Source: a virus. From it: 21,103 nt of DNA. The notes under the pieces were generated by a model. It searched no databases. It worked only from the letters and a program-made list of their open reading frames with translations, and had not been told where the DNA came from. The stretch spans positions 1-21,103 of the IMG/VR virus record IMGVR_UViG_3300044846_000918; one strand, written 5' to 3'. Within the stretch, counting starts at the first letter, position 1. Each line of letters begins with the position of its first letter. Below are positions 1,654 through 19,652 of the stretch, in pieces. Position numbers and translations under genes: made by a program.

Positions 1654-3642
1654 ATGTCTACAGAAATAGGGTTTGTAGATTCCTTGGGAGAAAGCAATGA
1701 GACCCAGGCCTCATTTAACTACCCTAAAAAACTCTACTATGACGGAGCCAAAAGAACTAATGATGCTGCAGGGGTAAATAAAGAAAACCAGATCTGCACA
1801 TATAACACCCTATATGATCTAAATACTGAAAGACTCTTAAGAAGAGCAAGTCTTTTAGTTACTCCAACTTTTTATAAAGAGGGAACACTTTTTTCTGTAA
1901 AACCTACAGGAAGTACCAATGGTAACTTTACTGTTACTAGAGCAACTACTGCCACTCGTGTCAACGCTGCGGGCTTGGTTGAGTTAGTGCCTTATAATTT
2001 GTTGCAGCAAAGTGAAGTTTTTAGTAATGCTATTTGGCTCAAAGGTGCTTCAACCATACTTCCAAATATTACAACTGCACCAAACGGCACGTTAACTGCT
2101 GATAAAATATATCCAACTTCTTCAGGTAACGCAAGGGCAGTTCAGCAAGTTTTAAGCGGAGTTGTATTAAATAATCATACTACAAGTATTTATGCAAAAC
2201 ACGATGGAGGCACAATAAATATTTTAACCTTGACACGCGGAATGTCACCTGATGTTTCATTTAATATTTTAACAGGTCAAGTTGTAGGAACAATACCTAC
2301 AGGTATGTCTGCTTCTATTCAATCAGTTGGAAATGGTTGGTTTCGATGCATTGTACAATATAATTCTGCAAATACAGATAATAGAGTATATTGGTTGTTA
2401 AGTAACTCTGCAAATAGCTTTACAGTAACAGCTAATGGAACAGATGGCATATTCCTATGGGGCGCTCAACTTGTCGAAGGCACTTCTGCCCTTGACTACC
2501 AAATGACGGAAACACGGCTTAACATCCCTCGCCTTGACTACTCACTTGGAAGCTGCCCTAACATCTTGCTTGAGCCGCAGAGGACTAACCTTGCGTTGAG
2601 GAGTGAGGAGTTTGAGAATGTTATTGTTTGGACAAGCTCAATAGGTGGTACGGGAGTTCTTCCAACAAGGACTGCAAATTCTGTTATTTCACCTAGCGGA
2701 GTTCAAAACGCAGATACTATTGTTTTTAATAGAGGTGCGGGAAATACAATCAATGACCAATGTGTTATAAGTCAACCTATCACTATACCAACAACGGGAA
2801 CTTATTATTTTTCCGTTTGGATGAAAGCAACAACGAGTGGAGATGTAGGCAAACAAGTATTATTAAGATGTGGAAATTCGGGAACTTTAACGCCTTTTAC
2901 ACTTACTGCTAATTGGACAAGATTTGAAACAACTGCTTCAGTCACTTTAGGTTTAAGTAGTTTTCAAATAGGAAACAGAGGAACAATAACAACGGGAAAT
3001 TCAGTTAGCGTTGACCTATGGGGCGCACAACTCGAAGCGGGCGCTTACGCAACATCTTATATACCAACAGTTGCTGCAAGTGTTACAAGGAATGCTGACG
3101 TAATCAGTAGAGGCAACATCTTCACCAATGGGCTGATTACTGCAAGCGGGGGTACTTGGTTTGTGGATTTGAGAAATAACCTTTCAAGAGTAAGAGATAA
3201 CGGAAGCAATGGCTTATTTTTAAGTTCAACATCAACAGGAAGTGGAGGCGATACGCTCGGTTTTCAAAGCACGGGTGGCGCTGTTAGAATGTCTGTATTT
3301 AGACGAATCAGCGGAACATTTGCAAGCCTATTTACACTCACTACTGACAACGCAAAAGTAGCCATCAAATGGAACGGAACAACGGCAGACGTATTTGTTA
3401 ACGGGGTTAAGGTTGTTACTGCAACTTCATTTACTGCAACTAATTTAGATTTCTTATCGGGTTTAGCTGCTGACGTACCAAAGAACATCAACTCAATGGC
3501 GCTATTCCCAACTCCGCTTACTGACGGGGAGATGTCCATGCTCACTTCGGGAGTCTACACACCTGCACTTGCATACGCTCAGTTAGGTCTCACATCAGAG
3601 TCACCTGCCTGCTTAGATTCATCTGTAAACGCTTTATTATAA
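1654..3642 (+). CDS. Modular phage fibre protein with tandem carbohydrate-binding-like modules
   Basis: 662 residues, probably a receptor-binding fibre or spike. Residues 1-90 are a unique N-terminal attachment region. Residues 92-114 carry FTVTRATTATRxNAAGLVEL, a boundary motif common in phage adhesins. Two carbohydrate-binding-like beta modules follow. Module 1 (about 115-270) ends LWGAQLVEGTSALDYQ. A hinge (about 287-320) contains LLEPQRTNL and RSEEF. Module 2 (about 320-480) ends LWGAQLEAGAYATSYIPT. Residues 481-640 form a LamG-like C-terminal domain with a FVNGVKV strand and an ALFPTPLTDGEMSML end. The next gene is a paralogue with the same architecture. Base composition jumps at the conserved hinge (about 53% GC at 2461-2580 against about 27% at 2341-2400). 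No cleavage or lyase motif is seen; binding is inferred. Confidence 0.75.
   Translation: MSTEIGFVDSLGESNETQASFNYPKKLYYDGAKRTNDAAGVNKENQICTYNTLYDLNTERLLRRASLLVTPTFYKEGTLFSVKPTGSTNGNFTVTRATTATRVNAAGLVELVPYNLLQQSEVFSNAIWLKGASTILPNITTAPNGTLTADKIYPTSSGNARAVQQVLSGVVLNNHTTSIYAKHDGGTINILTLTRGMSPDVSFNILTGQVVGTIPTGMSASIQSVGNGWFRCIVQYNSANTDNRVYWLLSNSANSFTVTANGTDGIFLWGAQLVEGTSALDYQMTETRLNIPRLDYSLGSCPNILLEPQRTNLALRSEEFENVIVWTSSIGGTGVLPTRTANSVISPSGVQNADTIVFNRGAGNTINDQCVISQPITIPTTGTYYFSVWMKATTSGDVGKQVLLRCGNSGTLTPFTLTANWTRFETTASVTLGLSSFQIGNRGTITTGNSVSVDLWGAQLEAGAYATSYIPTVAASVTRNADVISRGNIFTNGLITASGGTWFVDLRNNLSRVRDNGSNGLFLSSTSTGSGGDTLGFQSTGGAVRMSVFRRISGTFASLFTLTTDNAKVAIKWNGTTADVFVNGVKVVTATSFTATNLDFLSGLAADVPKNINSMALFPTPLTDGEMSMLTSGVYTPALAYAQLGLTSESPACLDSSVNALL
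2461..2623 (+). repeat. Inter-module hinge, copy 1 (paired with 4282-4440)
   Basis: This stretch encodes the conserved WGAQLVEG...LLEPQRTNL...RSEEF linker between the two carbohydrate-binding-like modules. It is repeated at protein level in the next gene. The longest DNA identity I see by eye is the 15-base block cagaggactaacctt. Its GC content (about 53% over 2461-2580, counted by hand) is far above the flanking module interior. Confidence 0.6.
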
Positions 3643-3643
3643 T

Positions 3644-5317
3644 ATGGCAACACCAACATTCATACTACCATCAGCACCTACCTACACTGAGGGTTTTGTA
3701 AACGGACTGAACGTCTATCCTAACCCTACGAACTTTGTAGCTAACCAAGTGCCGTTCACAAGAGCCACTACAGCCACAAGAACAAATGCAGCAGGACTGA
3801 TTGAGCTTACGCCTTATAATTTGATAACTTGGTCGGAGCAATTGGATAACATAGCTTGGAGTAAAACTAATACTAATGTATTACCAAACCTGACAAACTC
3901 ACCCTTTGGAGTTTTAAATGCAGATTTAGTAATACCAACTACTACTAATGGAGAGCATAATACTAATCCACCTAATGCACCTTTAGCACCTATTACTAAT
4001 GCAGAAACTGCAAGTATATATGCAAAAGCCTCAGGTTACAATTTTATAGGCATCAGAATAAATGTTAATTCTAGTTGGGTAGTTTCTTTTTTCGACTTAA
4101 TCAATGGTGTAGTTATCTCTACTGGGGCAGGTATGACTGCTTCAATTCAATCTGTTGGTGAAGGTTGGTACAGATGTATCGTGTCTTATTCACTAAGGAC
4201 TGCTAATGGGATACAACTAATTCCTAGTAATAATGGAGTTTCAATAACCTTTGCTGGTGATGGGAATTCAGGAGTTTTCATGTGGGGAGCCCAACTTGTA
4301 GAAGGAACAGACGCTCTACCATACCAACTAACAGAGACACGCCTCAACAGGCCAAGAGTAGACTTCTCACTAGGCGGTTGCCCTAATCTATTGTTAGAGC
4401 CACAGAGGACTAACCTTTTGGTGAGAAGCGAGGAGTTTAATAATGCCTCGTGGTTTTCTTCATCAGGAGGAGTAAGTGTATTGGCTAATCAAGCAATAGC
4501 TCCAAATGGTCAAAATCAAATGGATTTAATTACTTTCACGGGAAATACACAAAATCTAATACAAAGCGTAATTGTATTAAATGCAACGCAGTATACCTTT
4601 TCAATATGGTTGGCAACTACATCAGGAACGCAAACAGTGCAAATTGGAGGCATTGACATAAATGTTTGGAATACTGTAACAGTTACAACAACACCAACAA
4701 GGTTTACAATAACATCTACAACAACGTCAACTACAAGATTTCCTGGAATAAGAAGTACTGGAGCTTCTTCTATTTTGGCTTGGGGCGCACAAATGGAACT
4801 CGGAGCCTATCCAACTACATACGTACCAACTCAAGCAGCAACTGTTACACGCAACTTAGATGTCGCTCAGCTAACAGGTGCTCAAACATTAATTGGTCAA
4901 ACTGAAGGTACATTGTATTGGGAAGGTACGCTTACTGCGGGTCAAGCAGATGATATATTTTATTTAAATACAAGCGTTACAAATAGTGTTTTCCTTTATA
5001 GGGCTACTGGAGTCAGCAATACAATTTTGTTCCGTATTTATTATGGTGGTTCTTTTATTACTATAGGTAACGCAACAGCATATACGGGTTTAGTTAAAAT
5101 TGCAGCAGCTTATAAAAGTGGAGATAGTGTTTTATACATTAACGGGGTACAAACAGGTACAAGCGCCACCGCCTTTGCATTTACGGGTGCTCTTAACGAT
5201 GTAGTTTTAAACAACTCGGCTTATGGATTTGGCAATGCAGCTAAAAGAATTAAGTCAGCTGCTATATATAACACTCGATTAACTAATGCGGAATTAGCAA
5301 CATTAACAACACCATAA
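3644..5317 (+). CDS. Modular phage fibre protein, paralogue of the preceding gene
   Basis: 557 residues with the same plan as the gene immediately upstream but a much shorter N-terminus. The boundary motif PFTRATTATRTNAAGLIEL is at residues 37-55. Module 1 (about 58-215) ends MWGAQLVEGTDALPYQ. The hinge with LLEPQRTNLL and RSEEF is at about 236-266. Module 2 (about 267-405) ends WGAQMELGAYPTTYVPT. A LamG-like C-terminal domain (about 410-555) contains VLYINGVQTG and IYNTRLTNAELATL. The conserved hinges match the neighbour closely, while module interiors differ strongly. The likely role is a second receptor-binding fibre with different specificity, or a subunit that assembles on the first. It begins one base after the upstream stop and is followed after two bases by a small trailing gene. 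Confidence 0.75.
   Translation: MATPTFILPSAPTYTEGFVNGLNVYPNPTNFVANQVPFTRATTATRTNAAGLIELTPYNLITWSEQLDNIAWSKTNTNVLPNLTNSPFGVLNADLVIPTTTNGEHNTNPPNAPLAPITNAETASIYAKASGYNFIGIRINVNSSWVVSFFDLINGVVISTGAGMTASIQSVGEGWYRCIVSYSLRTANGIQLIPSNNGVSITFAGDGNSGVFMWGAQLVEGTDALPYQLTETRLNRPRVDFSLGGCPNLLLEPQRTNLLVRSEEFNNASWFSSSGGVSVLANQAIAPNGQNQMDLITFTGNTQNLIQSVIVLNATQYTFSIWLATTSGTQTVQIGGIDINVWNTVTVTTTPTRFTITSTTTSTTRFPGIRSTGASSILAWGAQMELGAYPTTYVPTQAATVTRNLDVAQLTGAQTLIGQTEGTLYWEGTLTAGQADDIFYLNTSVTNSVFLYRATGVSNTILFRIYYGGSFITIGNATAYTGLVKIAAAYKSGDSVLYINGVQTGTSATAFAFTGALNDVVLNNSAYGFGNAAKRIKSAAIYNTRLTNAELATLTTP
4282..4440 (+). repeat. Inter-module hinge, copy 2 (paired with 2461-2623)
   Basis: This is the second copy of the fibre hinge, encoding WGAQLVEGTDAL...LLEPQRTNLL...RSEEF. 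Many codons differ from copy 1 but the protein sequence is largely kept. About 50% GC at 4321-4380 against about 35% in sampled module interiors (3961-4020 and 4561-4620). Confidence 0.55.
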
Positions 5318-5319
5318 CC

Positions 5320-5634
5320 ATGAACATTTTCAAATTATCCTATCAAGACAAAGACCAAGCAGTAGCTGACTTGGTTGCAAAGAACATTTTAGTACCTCAA
5401 GAGGAAGGTTACTCATACGGAGAAGGAGTGCAGGCCGTTGTTGAGCTAGGCATCATCTGCTTAGACCCAACTGCTGAGCCACCTGTATATGCTGAAGGAT
5501 ATCACTATGATGTAATGTCAACAGAGACATATGACTTTGGAGCTAATTTAGTAGAACCTGCAAATCCTAAACATGCTTTTGCCGGATACCCTATTACTGC
5601 AGAATATATTCCTACAGAAGAGGAACTTATCTAA
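5320..5634 (+). CDS. Small acidic protein trailing the fibre genes
   Basis: 104 residues, acidic, soluble, without signal or membrane segment. The N-terminus reads MNIFKLSYQDKDQAVADLVAK, followed by a Gly/Tyr segment (YSYGEGVQAVVELG). The C-terminus is Pro/Glu-rich and ends in IPTEEELI. Short genes like this directly behind Bacteroidetes phage fibre genes are common and unassigned. A fibre-assembly chaperone or small virion subunit are both possible, and the sequence does not decide between them. It starts two bases after the fibre stop and is followed by a 21-base gap before the lysis genes. Confidence 0.55.
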   Translation: MNIFKLSYQDKDQAVADLVAKNILVPQEEGYSYGEGVQAVVELGIICLDPTAEPPVYAEGYHYDVMSTETYDFGANLVEPANPKHAFAGYPITAEYIPTEEELI

Positions 5635-6855: not shown

Positions 6856-7232
6856 GAACTAGATTATTTCTGATAGCGGGTGGTTTTATTCTACTTGTAA
6901 TATTACAGATATTCTCAAGTGGTCATGAACATGTAGTTGTTGTAGATGATAATGTTCAATTAACTGGAAAGAACAAACAACTTACTACAGCAAATACTAA
7001 GTTAACTAAAAGTGTAGGTAAGTTAAAAGCTGCAAATAAAGAACTAGTAGAGGATAAAGCAAATCTAGAAGAAATGGTCTCTGAAGTTATTGGAGACTTA
7101 GATAGTACAAGATCTGTAGTAAAAGACATAAAAAAAGAATTAGCAAATGAAAAAGATATTGTTCGCAAGCAGTCTACTGGTAAGCAGTTTGAGTTCCAGC
7201 CAATCACGTTACCCACTTCAGACGGTAATTGA
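6852..7232 (+). CDS. Inner-membrane spanin-like protein (i-spanin candidate)
   Basis: 126 residues. An N-terminal anchor (about 4-22, RLFLIAGGFILLVILQIF) is followed by a periplasmic region (about 35-113) of Lys/Glu/Leu-rich heptads (KNKQLTTANTKLTKSVGKL and onward), a clear coiled coil. The extreme C-terminus is Pro-containing (PITLPTSDGN). This is the classic Rz-like i-spanin plan, and the length is within the usual i-spanin range. Its last 86 bases also encode, in another frame, the signal peptide and first residues of the next gene, an embedded arrangement like Rz/Rz1. The first four bases overlap the upstream stop (ATGA). Motif-level similarity to known spanins was not tested. Confidence 0.65.
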   Translation: MRTRLFLIAGGFILLVILQIFSSGHEHVVVVDDNVQLTGKNKQLTTANTKLTKSVGKLKAANKELVEDKANLEEMVSEVIGDLDSTRSVVKDIKKELANEKDIVRKQSTGKQFEFQPITLPTSDGN

Positions 7233-7698
7233 AGGTGACTCAGTAGTTATTCTTACCAAGGGTCAAGCTGATACTATCAATGATATCTTTGAAAGCCAAA
7301 AGAAAAAAATTGCTGACTCTAAGGTTGAACTAAGAACTAAAGACTCTATTATAAGATATAAAGATTCTATGCTCAGATACAATTCAGGGTATTATTCAGC
7401 ATATAAAATGCTAAGAGAAGAATACACAGATATGTTGATTCTTAATGAGCATACAGAAGAATGGATAGTAGCTAGAGCAAAAGAAGGAGCATGGTTATAT
7501 TATTCATATGACAGCAACTGGATTGAAGCAGTAGACCTATCAGTATATGTAGTAAGAAAGAATGATCAAACCGGGGACATATTCTTCTATAGAGCAGAAA
7601 CATGTCCTCCAGAAGATAAAAAGAAAAATGACTATCCTAGAAGAGGATGGGAAAAAGAGGTAATATTACCCAACAGACCAAAAATAAATAAGTTATGA
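7147..7698 (+). CDS. Secreted spanin-partner-like protein overlapping i-spanin candidate
   Basis: 183 residues. It starts inside the preceding gene in the +1 frame, overlapping it by 86 bases. The first 19-20 residues (MKKILFASSLLVSSLSSSQS) form a signal peptide of Bacteroidetes type, with likely cleavage near SSS|Q. No Cys follows the hydrophobic core, so this is not an obvious lipoprotein as a canonical o-spanin would be. The mature protein opens with IEGDSVVILTKGQADTIN, then has a charged coiled coil (about 48-95, KVELRTKDSIIRYKDSMLR) and a globular Trp/Tyr-rich C-terminal half (about 105-183). No later in-frame ATG lies near the end of the upstream gene, which supports this overlapping start. 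The role as periplasmic or outer-membrane spanin partner is inferred. It overlaps the next gene by four bases. Confidence 0.65.
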   Translation: MKKILFASSLLVSSLSSSQSRYPLQTVIEGDSVVILTKGQADTINDIFESQKKKIADSKVELRTKDSIIRYKDSMLRYNSGYYSAYKMLREEYTDMLILNEHTEEWIVARAKEGAWLYYSYDSNWIEAVDLSVYVVRKNDQTGDIFFYRAETCPPEDKKKNDYPRRGWEKEVILPNRPKINKL

Positions 7699-10087: not shown

Positions 10088-10331
10088 AGGCATTAAGAAC
10101 TCAGTAGTAAGAGATGAGTTTGTAGAAGATGTTGCAAGAATGAGATATGATGTCTGTGATGAATGTCCAAGCAAGGGTAAAAAGTGCGCAGTAAAAGGTA
10201 CAGGACCTTGTTGTAATGAATGCGGATGTTCATTAGCTTTTAAGACTAGATCTCTTTCATCAGAATGTCCTCTTGGTAAATGGCAAGCAATTGCTACAGA
10301 AGAAGAAGAAGATAAATTAGAACAATTATGA
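10038..10331 (+). CDS. Cys-rich, probable zinc-binding protein
   Basis: 97 residues with eight Cys: 40, 43, 50, 58, 59, 62, 64 and 77. They are arranged as CDEC...C...CCNECGC...C with KTRSLSSECPLGKW at the end of the cluster. Such CxxC pairs form a zinc-ribbon-like or double-knuckle unit. The N-terminal 35 residues are a charged helix (AIWENKKAILEGIKNSVV), and the C-terminus is acidic. The pattern is familiar from small phage proteins next to packaging genes but has no known function. The start at 10038 lies 50 bases inside the IHF-like gene. An alternative in-frame ATG at 10140 would keep the whole Cys cluster and remove the overlap. The stop overlaps the nuclease start (ATGA). Confidence 0.6.
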   Translation: MKAALKAIWENKKAILEGIKNSVVRDEFVEDVARMRYDVCDECPSKGKKCAVKGTGPCCNECGCSLAFKTRSLSSECPLGKWQAIATEEEEDKLEQL

Positions 10332-11164
10332 GCATAGTATTTAATGCAGATGATCATAGCTACAAAAGTGTAGATCCTAATGATGAAATTAAGTGGGTTA
10401 GTGTGACTACCCTATTGTCTAGTCTTAAGAAACCTTTTGATGCTAAGAAAGTAGCGGAAAGAGTAAGTAAGAATAAGAAGTCTAAGTGGTATGGTATTGA
10501 TCCTAAAACCATTGTTCAGATATGGGATAATGAAGCTAACAGAGCTACAACTCTTGGTACATTCTACCATAACCAAAGAGAAACTGACTTATGTTCTTTA
10601 GCATCTATTGAAAGAGAAGGTGTGAACGTTCCTGTTTTTAAACCCTTTGAACAACCAAATGGTTTAAAGATTGCTCCTTCACAAAAGCTTGATCCAGGCG
10701 TGTATCCAGAACATATGGTCTATCTTAAGTCAGCAGGCTTATGTGGCCAATCAGATTTAGTTGAAGTAGTCAATGGTAGAGTTAATATCATTGACTACAA
10801 GACTAATAAGGAGATTAAAACAGAATCATTTAAGAACTGGGAAGGAATGTCTGAAAAGATGTTACCACCAGTAGATCATTTAGATGACTGTAACTTTAAT
10901 CATTATGCTTTACAGTTAAGTGTATATATGTATATTATCTTAAAGCATAATCCTAAACTTCAACCAGGAAAAATATTTATTCATCATATTACATTTGAAA
11001 CAGCTGGTGAAGATCAATACGGATATCCTATTGCTAAATTAGATGATAATGGAGAACCAATAGTATTAGAAGTAATACCAATGCAGGTTCCTTATCTTTA
11101 TGATGAGGTTATCTCTGTTATTAATTATCTCAAGGATAATCCTTACATTATTAAAAAGAAATAA
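10328..11164 (+). CDS. PD-(D/E)XK family nuclease (RecB/Cas4-like)
   Basis: 278 residues. The conserved elements of a PD-(D/E)XK exonuclease-type core appear in order: GTFYH with His81 (77-81), PEHMVYL with Glu128 (127-133), GLCGQSDLVEV with Asp143 (137-147), NIIDYKTNK with catalytic Asp156 and Lys158 (153-161), and the QLSVYMYIL helix with Gln196 and Tyr200 that typifies RecB-like and Cas4-like members. No Cys cluster for an Fe-S centre is visible, unlike Cas4. Its position three genes upstream of the terminase suggests trimming or processing of replicated DNA, or host DNA degradation. The start overlaps the upstream stop by four bases. The length is typical for stand-alone phage members. 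Confidence 0.8.
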   Translation: MSIVFNADDHSYKSVDPNDEIKWVSVTTLLSSLKKPFDAKKVAERVSKNKKSKWYGIDPKTIVQIWDNEANRATTLGTFYHNQRETDLCSLASIEREGVNVPVFKPFEQPNGLKIAPSQKLDPGVYPEHMVYLKSAGLCGQSDLVEVVNGRVNIIDYKTNKEIKTESFKNWEGMSEKMLPPVDHLDDCNFNHYALQLSVYMYIILKHNPKLQPGKIFIHHITFETAGEDQYGYPIAKLDDNGEPIVLEVIPMQVPYLYDEVISVINYLKDNPYIIKKK

Positions 11165-11165
11165 T

Positions 11166-11681
11166 ATGATTGTAAGATTGTTTGATGTTCAGAATGGTAA
11201 AGTAATTCCTACAGAACATTGCTATACACTAAAGGCGCTTAAAGATGTAATGGATAACTATCCGGATGATTATCTTAAAATATATCTTTACTTATTTTAT
11301 ATGACATGTCCTAATCCAGATATGAATCCTTTCTTTCATACTCCAGAAGTAGACAAAGAACATATTATCTTAAAAGAAATACAAGCAGAGTTTTCTACAG
11401 AAGATGATGATATACATACTGCTTTACTATTCTGCCAAAGAATGTATGAAACGCCTACATCTAGAGCATATAAAGGAATGGCATCTATGTTAGATAGATT
11501 AGCCAGATATATGGAGACTACACAGATTACTGCAGGTAGAGATGGAAACATTAATTCACTAGTAGCTGCAGCTAAGAACTTTGATCAGATTAGAGCATCA
11601 TTTAAAGGGGTCTACAAAGATCTTCAGGATGAACAATCAAGCAAAGTAAGAGGTGGAATTGGAATGGCATATGACCAATAA
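11166..11681 (+). CDS. Conserved protein directly upstream of TerL, candidate small terminase subunit
   Basis: 171 residues from the ATG at 11166, which follows the nuclease stop by one base. An in-frame ATG at 11100 would overlap the nuclease by 65 bases and is less likely. The N-terminal half is mixed alpha/beta (MIVRLFDVQNGKVIP..., YLKIYLYLFYMTCP). The C-terminal half is helical, with a conserved-looking run RAYKGMASMLDRLARYM, GRDGNINSL, FDQIRASFKGVYKDL and a tail KVRGGIGMAYDQ. Its position two bases before TerL and its size suit a small terminase subunit, which in many phages is too divergent to recognise. This remains a positional inference; no helix-turn-helix is evident by eye. Confidence 0.6.
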   Translation: MIVRLFDVQNGKVIPTEHCYTLKALKDVMDNYPDDYLKIYLYLFYMTCPNPDMNPFFHTPEVDKEHIILKEIQAEFSTEDDDIHTALLFCQRMYETPTSRAYKGMASMLDRLARYMETTQITAGRDGNINSLVAAAKNFDQIRASFKGVYKDLQDEQSSKVRGGIGMAYDQ

Positions 11682-18035: not shown

Positions 18036-19652
18036 ATGGCAACTCCAGTTTTAAACAATGGTATATTCCTTAGGGATACCGCTTACAACGCAAGTTCCCA
18101 TGTGGATTCTTACCACTTGGTGAATATGCTGAAAGATGCTGAGCCTATGGACTTAGGCCCAGTTGATCTATGGGCTATGGCTCAAAAGGTAGAAATGCCT
18201 CTTTATCAAATGTCTTCATTTGGTGGCAAAAATGTTATCAGTGTTGATAATGCACGTGGGGAATACAGATGGCAGACTCCTGTCTCTATTGATCTTCCTT
18301 ACATTGTAGAAGACATGGAACCTACTAATGAGTACAAAGGTATTGAAGGTACTACTTTCCGTATCAAACTTAACAAAAGAGAATTTGGTCATGGTGATAT
18401 CATTACTTATGACAAATACAACGGTGTTGAGATGTACATTACTGCAGAAGATATCCTCCCTATTGGTGATGGCTTTATCTATACTGTACAGTTGGTGAAC
18501 AATGACAACTACAAATACTTAGATAATAAGTACTTGGCTAATGGTACTAAAGTATTCCGTAAAGGTTCTGCACGTGGTGAGTATGGTGAAAGATTCTCTG
18601 ACATCACTACTAACACTGGTTTCCGTGAATTCTATAACTACGTAGGTGGTGCTGAAGCTCACGTTCACTACTCTATCTCTAGCCGTGCTGACTTGATGAT
18701 CAAAGGTGGTATGAATGCAGATGGTACAGTTCCTGTAACTGAGATCTGGAGAACATTTGACAAGAACATTGATCCATCTATTGCTTCTTTGGAAGACATG
18801 GTGAAGGTAATGGGTAAAGATAAAGTTAAGAAAGCATTTGACAATGGTGACTTGTCACGTACATTCTTGACTAATATGGAAGCTGCTCACTTGAGCAAAA
18901 TTGCAACTGACATTGAAACATACCTCATGTGGGGTCATGGTGGTAGAGTACGTCAGGATGGTCCAGATGATGTTAGATTGTCTGTGGGTCTTTGGAAGCA
19001 GTTGGATAACTCATTCAAAAGAGTATACAACAAAAATAACTTCACACTTGACTTGTTCCGTTCTGAGATCTACAACTTCTTCAATGGTAAAGTTGAATTC
19101 CAAGGTCCAGATCCAAAACGTAGCCTAGTTGTACAAACTGGTATGGGTGGTATGCGTATGGTTAATGAGGCTATCAAACAAGAGGCTATCTCTTCTGGTC
19201 TTCTTATCCAAGCTGCTGACATCGGTGCAATCACTGGTAAAGGTATGGACTTGAACTTTGGTTTTGCTTACACTTCTTATGTTATCCCATTCTTGGCTAA
19301 CGTTAAGTTTGTGTTGAACCCAGCATTTGACAATGTTCATACAAATGATATTGAGAACCCAATCATTGATGGTTTCCCATTATCTTCTTACTCATTCATT
19401 ATCTTTGATATCACTGACAATACTAATGACAACATCTTCTTGTTGAAATTGTCTTGGGATAATCAATTGAAATGGTGGTATCAAAATGGTACTATGGATT
19501 ACATGGGACGTAGCCAAGGCTTCCAGTCTTCAGGTCAATTCAATGGTTACCGTGTGATGATGTCTCAAACAATGCCAGCTATCTGGGTTAAAGACCCTAC
19601 TAAAGTGTTGAAAATTGTTATGAGAAACCCAATCACTGGTGGATCATTCTAA
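18036..19652 (+). CDS. Major capsid protein, crAss-like
   Basis: 538 residues. The N-terminus contains SYHLVNMLKDAEPMDLGPVDLWAMAQKVEMPLYQM (about 25-59), a stretch I recognise from the crAss-like HK97-fold capsid protein. An E-loop/P-domain-like beta region (about 65-185) and a long A-domain (about 210-520) follow. The C-terminus ends MRNPITGGSF. It lies directly behind the scaffold-like gene and ahead of a strong terminator. Codon choice differs from its neighbours: Arg is often CGT and Leu often TTG, rather than the AGA and TTA/CTT preferred around it, as expected for the most highly expressed virion gene. Placement, length and motif make this the most secure structural assignment after the endolysin. 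Confidence 0.87.
   Translation: MATPVLNNGIFLRDTAYNASSHVDSYHLVNMLKDAEPMDLGPVDLWAMAQKVEMPLYQMSSFGGKNVISVDNARGEYRWQTPVSIDLPYIVEDMEPTNEYKGIEGTTFRIKLNKREFGHGDIITYDKYNGVEMYITAEDILPIGDGFIYTVQLVNNDNYKYLDNKYLANGTKVFRKGSARGEYGERFSDITTNTGFREFYNYVGGAEAHVHYSISSRADLMIKGGMNADGTVPVTEIWRTFDKNIDPSIASLEDMVKVMGKDKVKKAFDNGDLSRTFLTNMEAAHLSKIATDIETYLMWGHGGRVRQDGPDDVRLSVGLWKQLDNSFKRVYNKNNFTLDLFRSEIYNFFNGKVEFQGPDPKRSLVVQTGMGGMRMVNEAIKQEAISSGLLIQAADIGAITGKGMDLNFGFAYTSYVIPFLANVKFVLNPAFDNVHTNDIENPIIDGFPLSSYSFIIFDITDNTNDNIFLLKLSWDNQLKWWYQNGTMDYMGRSQGFQSSGQFNGYRVMMSQTMPAIWVKDPTKVLKIVMRNPITGGSF

Follow-up and report, generated by a model that had tools for sequence, protein, structure and literature searches.

The type of head spike fibre found in the gene transfer agent of Rhodobacter (RcGTA) is located on the capsid, where it stands upon a pentameric base protein. 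In RcGTA this fibre, Rcc01080, binds capsule (PMC10218006). Recent whole-domain exchange has been reported in phage tail fibres and receptor-binding proteins (PMC10684548), including those of cryoconite phages (PMC7468147), and the process itself is known already from T-even tail fibres as well as from such surveys of receptor-binding proteins. The two adjacent fibre genes considered here, termed A and B, most probably encode position-specific adhesin subunits, in which a constant frame holds exchangeable cassettes that are swapped between phages.

The window, which is the whole stretch of viral DNA analysed (21,103 nucleotides, positions 1 to 21,103 of IMG/VR record IMGVR_UViG_3300044846_000918), belongs to a crAss-like phage, since its major capsid protein (18036–19652) matches the Crassvirus major capsid family (Pfam PF23898 Crass_capsid, 110.5 bits against a cut-off of 27); TerL and portal are matched in PHROGs only. 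Genes A and B lie on the plus strand, one base apart, with the limits originally annotated (Table 1). Two genes upstream of them, at 616–1296 (226 aa) and 1299–1652 (117 aa), are 69–82% identical in sister phages, and relatives of the 616–1296 product occur at 38–55% identity on other contigs with such fibre genes; these are possibly adaptor or fibre proteins. The small gene behind the fibres is a possible candidate for a fibre partner or assembly factor. Elsewhere in the window, the gene at 10328–11164 encodes a PD-(D/E)XK exonuclease (phrog_298, PF12705) and adjoins a 193-aa gene (11100–11681) conserved in the sisters; it may be speculated that the exonuclease takes part in recombination, perhaps paired with the product of this neighbour.

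Table 1. Parts of fibre genes A and B and the gene that follows them (positions in the window).
Feature	Positions	Strand	Remarks
Fibre gene A	1654..3642	+	662 aa; ORF confirmed
A N-terminal part	1654..1935	+	Type I docking segment (ASLLVTP..YKEGTLFSV), preceded by an extension of 60 aa in which the model predicts two helices
A frame block 1	1936..2016	+	TRATTATRVNAAGL to PYNLLQQSE
A cassette 1 (domain 1 interior)	2017..2457	+	28–35% aa identity to relatives with a near-identical hinge
A hinge (domain 1 end, low-confidence linker, domain 2 start)	2458..2613	+	76–89% same codons with L004, L009, L034, L069, L083
A cassette 2 (domain 2 interior)	2614..3018	+	Sequence comparison with relatives
A frame block 3	3019..3102	+	WGAQLEAGAY to TRNADV
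A cassette 3 (LamG position) and C-terminus	3103..3642	+	A–B comparison, model of A
Fibre gene B	3644..5317	+	557 aa; ORF confirmed
B N-terminal part	3644..3757	+	Type III docking segment (MATPTFILPSAP); protein identical to L006 second fibre gene, DNA 99%
B frame block 1	3758..3838	+	TRATTATRTNAAGL to PYNLITWSE
B cassette 1 (domain 1 interior)	3839..4282	+	Predicted fold like Pa193 gp46, Z 23.9
B hinge	4283..4438	+	86% DNA identity and 45/50 same codons with L006 second gene; pLDDT <50 at residues 232–254
B cassette 2 (domain 2 interior)	4439..4780	+	Predicted fold CBM4/16/22/61-like, Z ~14
B frame block 3	4781..4864	+	WGAQMELGAY to TRNLDV
B cassette 3, LamG/CBM40-like	4865..5317	+	75–78% DNA identity to L148/L004, in whose genes the module interiors diverge from B
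Small gene behind fibres, phrog_36706	5320..5634	+	104 aa; also in at least 88 related loci

The initial annotation held that A and B share a single order of modules and hinges, and this order is indeed present in both proteins. The boundary motif TRATTATRxNAAGL (residues 95–108 of A and 39–52 of B) is followed by WGAQLVEG (269–276 and 214–221), LLEPQRTNL (305–313, as ILLEPQRTNL, and 250–258) and WGAQxExGAY (456–465 and 380–389), and BLASTP aligns the two proteins from the boundary to the C-terminus with 37% identity (E 1e-81). The hinges, described as nearly the same in protein, are identical at 46/65 residues, with 20/27 in the boundary and 20/31 in the end, as against 52/134 and 44/110 in the interiors of modules 1 and 2 and 39/129 in the LamG region; the N-termini differ, and the contrast between hinges and diverged interiors and N-termini thus stands. 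The VPT ending ascribed to both proteins is seen in B (YVPT), while A ends in YIPT. Where residues are identical, the codon is also the same at 22/45 positions in the hinge and at 25/49 and 21/42 in the interiors. Because codon agreement in the hinges does not exceed that in the interiors, the hinges have been kept as protein without recent exchange of DNA between A and B, and a recent exchange between the two genes is ruled out by the saturation of hinge synonymous sites. Among the matches listed, the closest relatives of A, and those of B, are found in other phages rather than in the neighbouring gene. Third-position GC in the frame blocks is higher than in a within-gene shuffle of synonymous codons (p 0.0002 for A and 0.006 for B). 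Over 84 genes, after correction for amino acids, the interiors are poorer in third-position GC than the frame blocks, for which no explanation was found.

Both proteins belong to the NCBIfam family NF048003 (GTA_spike_fiber), which matches two stretches in A (E 3.8e-52) and two in B (E 3.1e-55), with scores for the two proteins of 177.5 and 187.5 bits against the NCBI curated cut-off of 36 bits, and both match Rcc01080, the RcGTA head spike fibre whose structure has been solved. As each protein holds two such domains, the hinge is seen to run from the C-terminal end of domain 1 (WGAQLVEG) across a linker into the beginning of domain 2 (LLEPQRTNL). Within each protein the two domains are distantly related copies, and between A and B the first aligns with the first and the second with the second. 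Pfam gives no match above cut-off in either protein, and the CcmE matches of A, which fall below it, were judged spurious. The AlphaFold2 model of B, for which 59 sequences from the window and the loci were aligned, predicts three beta-sandwich domains (residues ~56–230, 256–390 and 420–557), with very low confidence at residues 1–55, 232–254 and 395–412. The model of A has the same plan plus two N-terminal helices, and its confidence is low at residues 96–113, within 285–310 and at 467–493. Since low confidence falls at frame stretches, the parts with the least predicted structure are largely those most constant in sequence, although low confidence may also reflect contacts invisible to a monomer model. 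The fold of domain 1 is like that of baseplate proteins of the Pseudomonas phages Pa193 (Z 23.9) and E217 (Z 20.1), and that of domain 2 is like carbohydrate-binding modules of families 4/16/22/61 (Z ~14). The LamG-like domain of the initial annotation is upheld for B, where there is a Pfam match below threshold and domain 3 is predicted to be of the CBM40/pentraxin class (Z ~15). From these predicted folds, the cassettes would bind sugars.

Many related loci contain two or three fibre genes in tandem. The first genes mostly begin with an ASLIVTPNxYKEG segment, and second or later genes often carry either NWAxKxDSLLGY (type II) or PTPTFILPSAP (type III, as in B). Among the matches listed, all 19 of the 19 type II or III genes follow another fibre gene, 18 of them directly and that of L137 with a fibre ~0.55 kb upstream, in a classification that was drawn up after viewing the sequences and that leaves a few second genes with neither type. 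The N-termini, initially described simply as diverged, appear to form position-specific classes rather than to be products of random divergence, and as judged from sequence they look like position tags. By analogy with the branched tailspike complex of Ackermannviridae, this suggests that type II and III N-termini dock at distinct sites, and the proposal of two binding specificities or a branched adhesin is plausible.

When IMG/VR was scanned with the alignment of A and B, at least 533 related stretches emerged, from which 80 loci were kept, and blocks were compared pairwise over 84 aligned full-length genes drawn from the matches listed; further loci, added through a 17-base hinge sequence, brought the family to 153 distinct genes. 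These contain, among the matches listed, 218 mosaic pairs, and as the relatives are metagenome contigs, chimeric assembly at conserved frames could mimic a swap; against this, the pairs quoted here are drawn from separate samples, and there are many frames with a difference of 10–15%. Swaps are found in every slot, in pairs that share one module at 97–100% protein identity with the others unrelated. Module 1 is common to L032 and L067 (100% aa, 99% same codon), whose module 2 is only 14% identical; L038 and L078 have module 2 in common (98%) but neither module 1 nor LamG; L050 and L077 share the LamG cassette (97%) and neither module; and L010 and L075, also of the 97–100% protein class, share module 2 together with LamG, the remainder being unrelated. 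Breakpoints, taken as the internal ends of shared segments, lie in frame blocks in 108/153 cases although these blocks make up 27% of the length (p 1e-28), and in 20/22 cases for segments of at least 95% identity, with HSP ends serving as a rough proxy for crossovers. Conserved joints thus flank exchangeable adhesin segments and breakpoints fall at the joints, as is characteristic of recombination-diversified adhesins. No correlation between module identities was seen across genes, an observation that is weak alone as most interior pairs are saturated. Among 84,980 bacterial and archaeal species genomes two relatives only were found, which does not point to prophages as a reservoir.

Swaps between hinges in metagenome relatives, proposed at the outset as a check, extend to close relatives of A and B themselves. 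The second fibre gene of L006 matches B in frame DNA at 99% (N-terminus), 89% (boundary) and 86% (hinge), with the same codons at 33/34, 24/27 and 45/50 positions, and the module interiors are 46% and 43% identical in DNA, with same codons at 15/42 and 13/32, which is background and means that synonymous sites are saturated. Uniform divergence along the full length is thereby excluded for B. The LamG cassette of B is in turn near those of L004 and L148. The hinge of A is 85–96% identical in amino acids to those of L004, L009, L034, L069 and L083, whose interiors are 16–35% identical to those of A, and no DNA similarity was detectable in the flanks of these genes.

Most of the window backbone recurs in four sister phages (L117, L108, L136 and L119), mostly at 85–94% DNA identity, and at the locus they possess only one fibre gene apiece, B being absent. 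The gene of L117 (326 aa) and that of L119 (486 aa) are almost the same in module 2 and LamG and differ in module 1, and their hinge DNA is clearly different to the left of GAGCCGCAGAGGACTAA and near-identical to the right of it. Moreover, the spacer from boundary to hinge is exactly 7 aa in 18 genes and 126–256 aa in 88, with none between, among the matches listed. Module 1 is therefore an optional insert, wholly present or wholly absent, even between sister phages. In the lysis region, the gene at 7147–7698 is 62% identical in L117, as against mostly 87–100% for the other genes.

It might be argued that there is no exchange at all, and that selection driven by the host makes the modules evolve rapidly where they stand, the hinges being under constraint. 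The interiors are exposed, putative binding domains and the hinges are conserved in all relatives among the matches listed, as this would predict, but rapid change of this sort would not bring the synonymous sites of one stretch to saturation and spare those of its neighbours; hence the modules of B and L006 have been replaced, their adjoining frame codons being 89–97% unchanged. Near-identical modules in otherwise different genes and the all-or-none behaviour of module 1 speak the same way, so that in the case of B and of the mosaic pairs divergence without exchange is refuted, and as a general account it is extremely unlikely. The initial annotation favoured duplication with module shuffling. 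A recent tandem duplication in this phage, followed by swapping between A and B, is what their adjacency and common architecture would suggest. Exchange between conserved hinges is borne out by the relatives, but a recent duplicate pair swapping mutually is very improbable, given the saturated A–B hinge synonymous sites, the four sisters without B, the match of B in frame and N-terminus to the second gene of L006 (86–99% DNA) and the recurrence of second-position N-terminal classes in many phages. An ancient duplication somewhere in the fibre family is not in doubt, because A and B are homologous.

The frame DNA could itself be selected as a recombination site, making it an evolved device for cassette exchange. 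Codon bias in frame columns across the family is extreme (GTG at 52/74 against 7.4 expected), in most of the 84 genes the frame blocks have elevated third-position GC after correction for amino acids, and the L117/L119 crossover adjoins GAGCCGCAGAGGACTAA. The apparent nucleotide-level selection on this hinge motif, strong at first, is nevertheless gone among distantly related frames, where 1304 pairs show no excess of shared codons in the EPQRTN core (-0.04). The bias thus reflects recent common ancestry of related frames, and homologous recombination of the ordinary kind, acting on conserved coding sequence, suffices; selection of the frame DNA is accordingly given very little weight. Site-specific or retroelement mechanisms, such as an invertase shufflon or a diversity-generating retroelement, also produce variable domains beside constant sequence, but the exchange here involves entire domains, unrelated in sequence, that pass between phages at several joints, and no reverse transcriptase or recombinase was seen among the window proteins scanned, which represent part of the open reading frames of a partial contig; such a mechanism has next to no likelihood.

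The favoured explanation is thus a constant frame with cassettes exchanged between phages. The frame would be composed of the N-terminal docking segment, the boundary block, the hinge, the third block and the C-terminal end, and would carry three interchangeable beta-sandwich domains, predicted to be of the carbohydrate-binding type. Phages meeting in one cell would undergo homologous recombination in conserved frame DNA, which would replace a whole cassette, or add or drop module 1, with the reading frame left intact. Binding specificity would be altered in this way and docking to the virion kept, and, as judged from sequence, the swaps probably change which bacteria the virus grips. B would descend from a second-position fibre lineage common to other phages and not from a recent copy of A. 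A further reading, unlikely though worth considering, is that crAss-like and other phages draw on a gene pool in which a standardised adhesin frame is maintained, its first slot optional and its docking ends specific to position, and that this frame works as an evolved system of cassette exchange from which a branched adhesin with two or three arms is built.

It is difficult to infer from sequence which hosts uncultured crAss-like phages can infect. In the fibres described here, the frame indicates phage lineage and adhesin position, and the independently moving cassettes are a likely readout of host sugars, so that binding modules can be catalogued apart from phage ancestry. The arrangement is also unusual in that constant sequence lies largely in predicted flexible linkers and it is the folded domains that vary.

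No published description of this frame and cassette arrangement was found in the open-access literature. Rcc01080 of RcGTA (GhsB) is alike in that it belongs to the sequence family of the A and B modules (NF048003); it is a protein of 325 aa, whereas A and B have two family domains plus LamG, often in several genes in a row. Domain 1 is alike in fold to E217 gp45 and Pa193 gp46 of Pseudomonas phages (8env, 9b45; Z 20–24), with sequence similarity as well, but these proteins are deposited as baseplate triplex or wedge components. The tailspike complex of Ackermannviridae (PMC11414711) also consists of several adhesin genes in which N-terminal segments set the place and receptor-binding parts exchange; its members differ in being tailspikes with XD/TD/anchor domains, and for A and B the branching is only inferred. 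The distal tail fibre locus of T-even phages, in the account of Tetart et al. (1998) as cited in PMC7468147, reflects the same kind of process; relative to that account, there are here three cassette slots, one of them optional, in a chain of beta-sandwiches predicted to be of the carbohydrate-binding type. Finally, PMC10684548 and PMC7468147 are surveys, whereas the fibres described here form one family with defined joints and slots, and it is the clean frame-and-cassette layout of this family, with its optional slot and putative position-specific docking ends, that is new.
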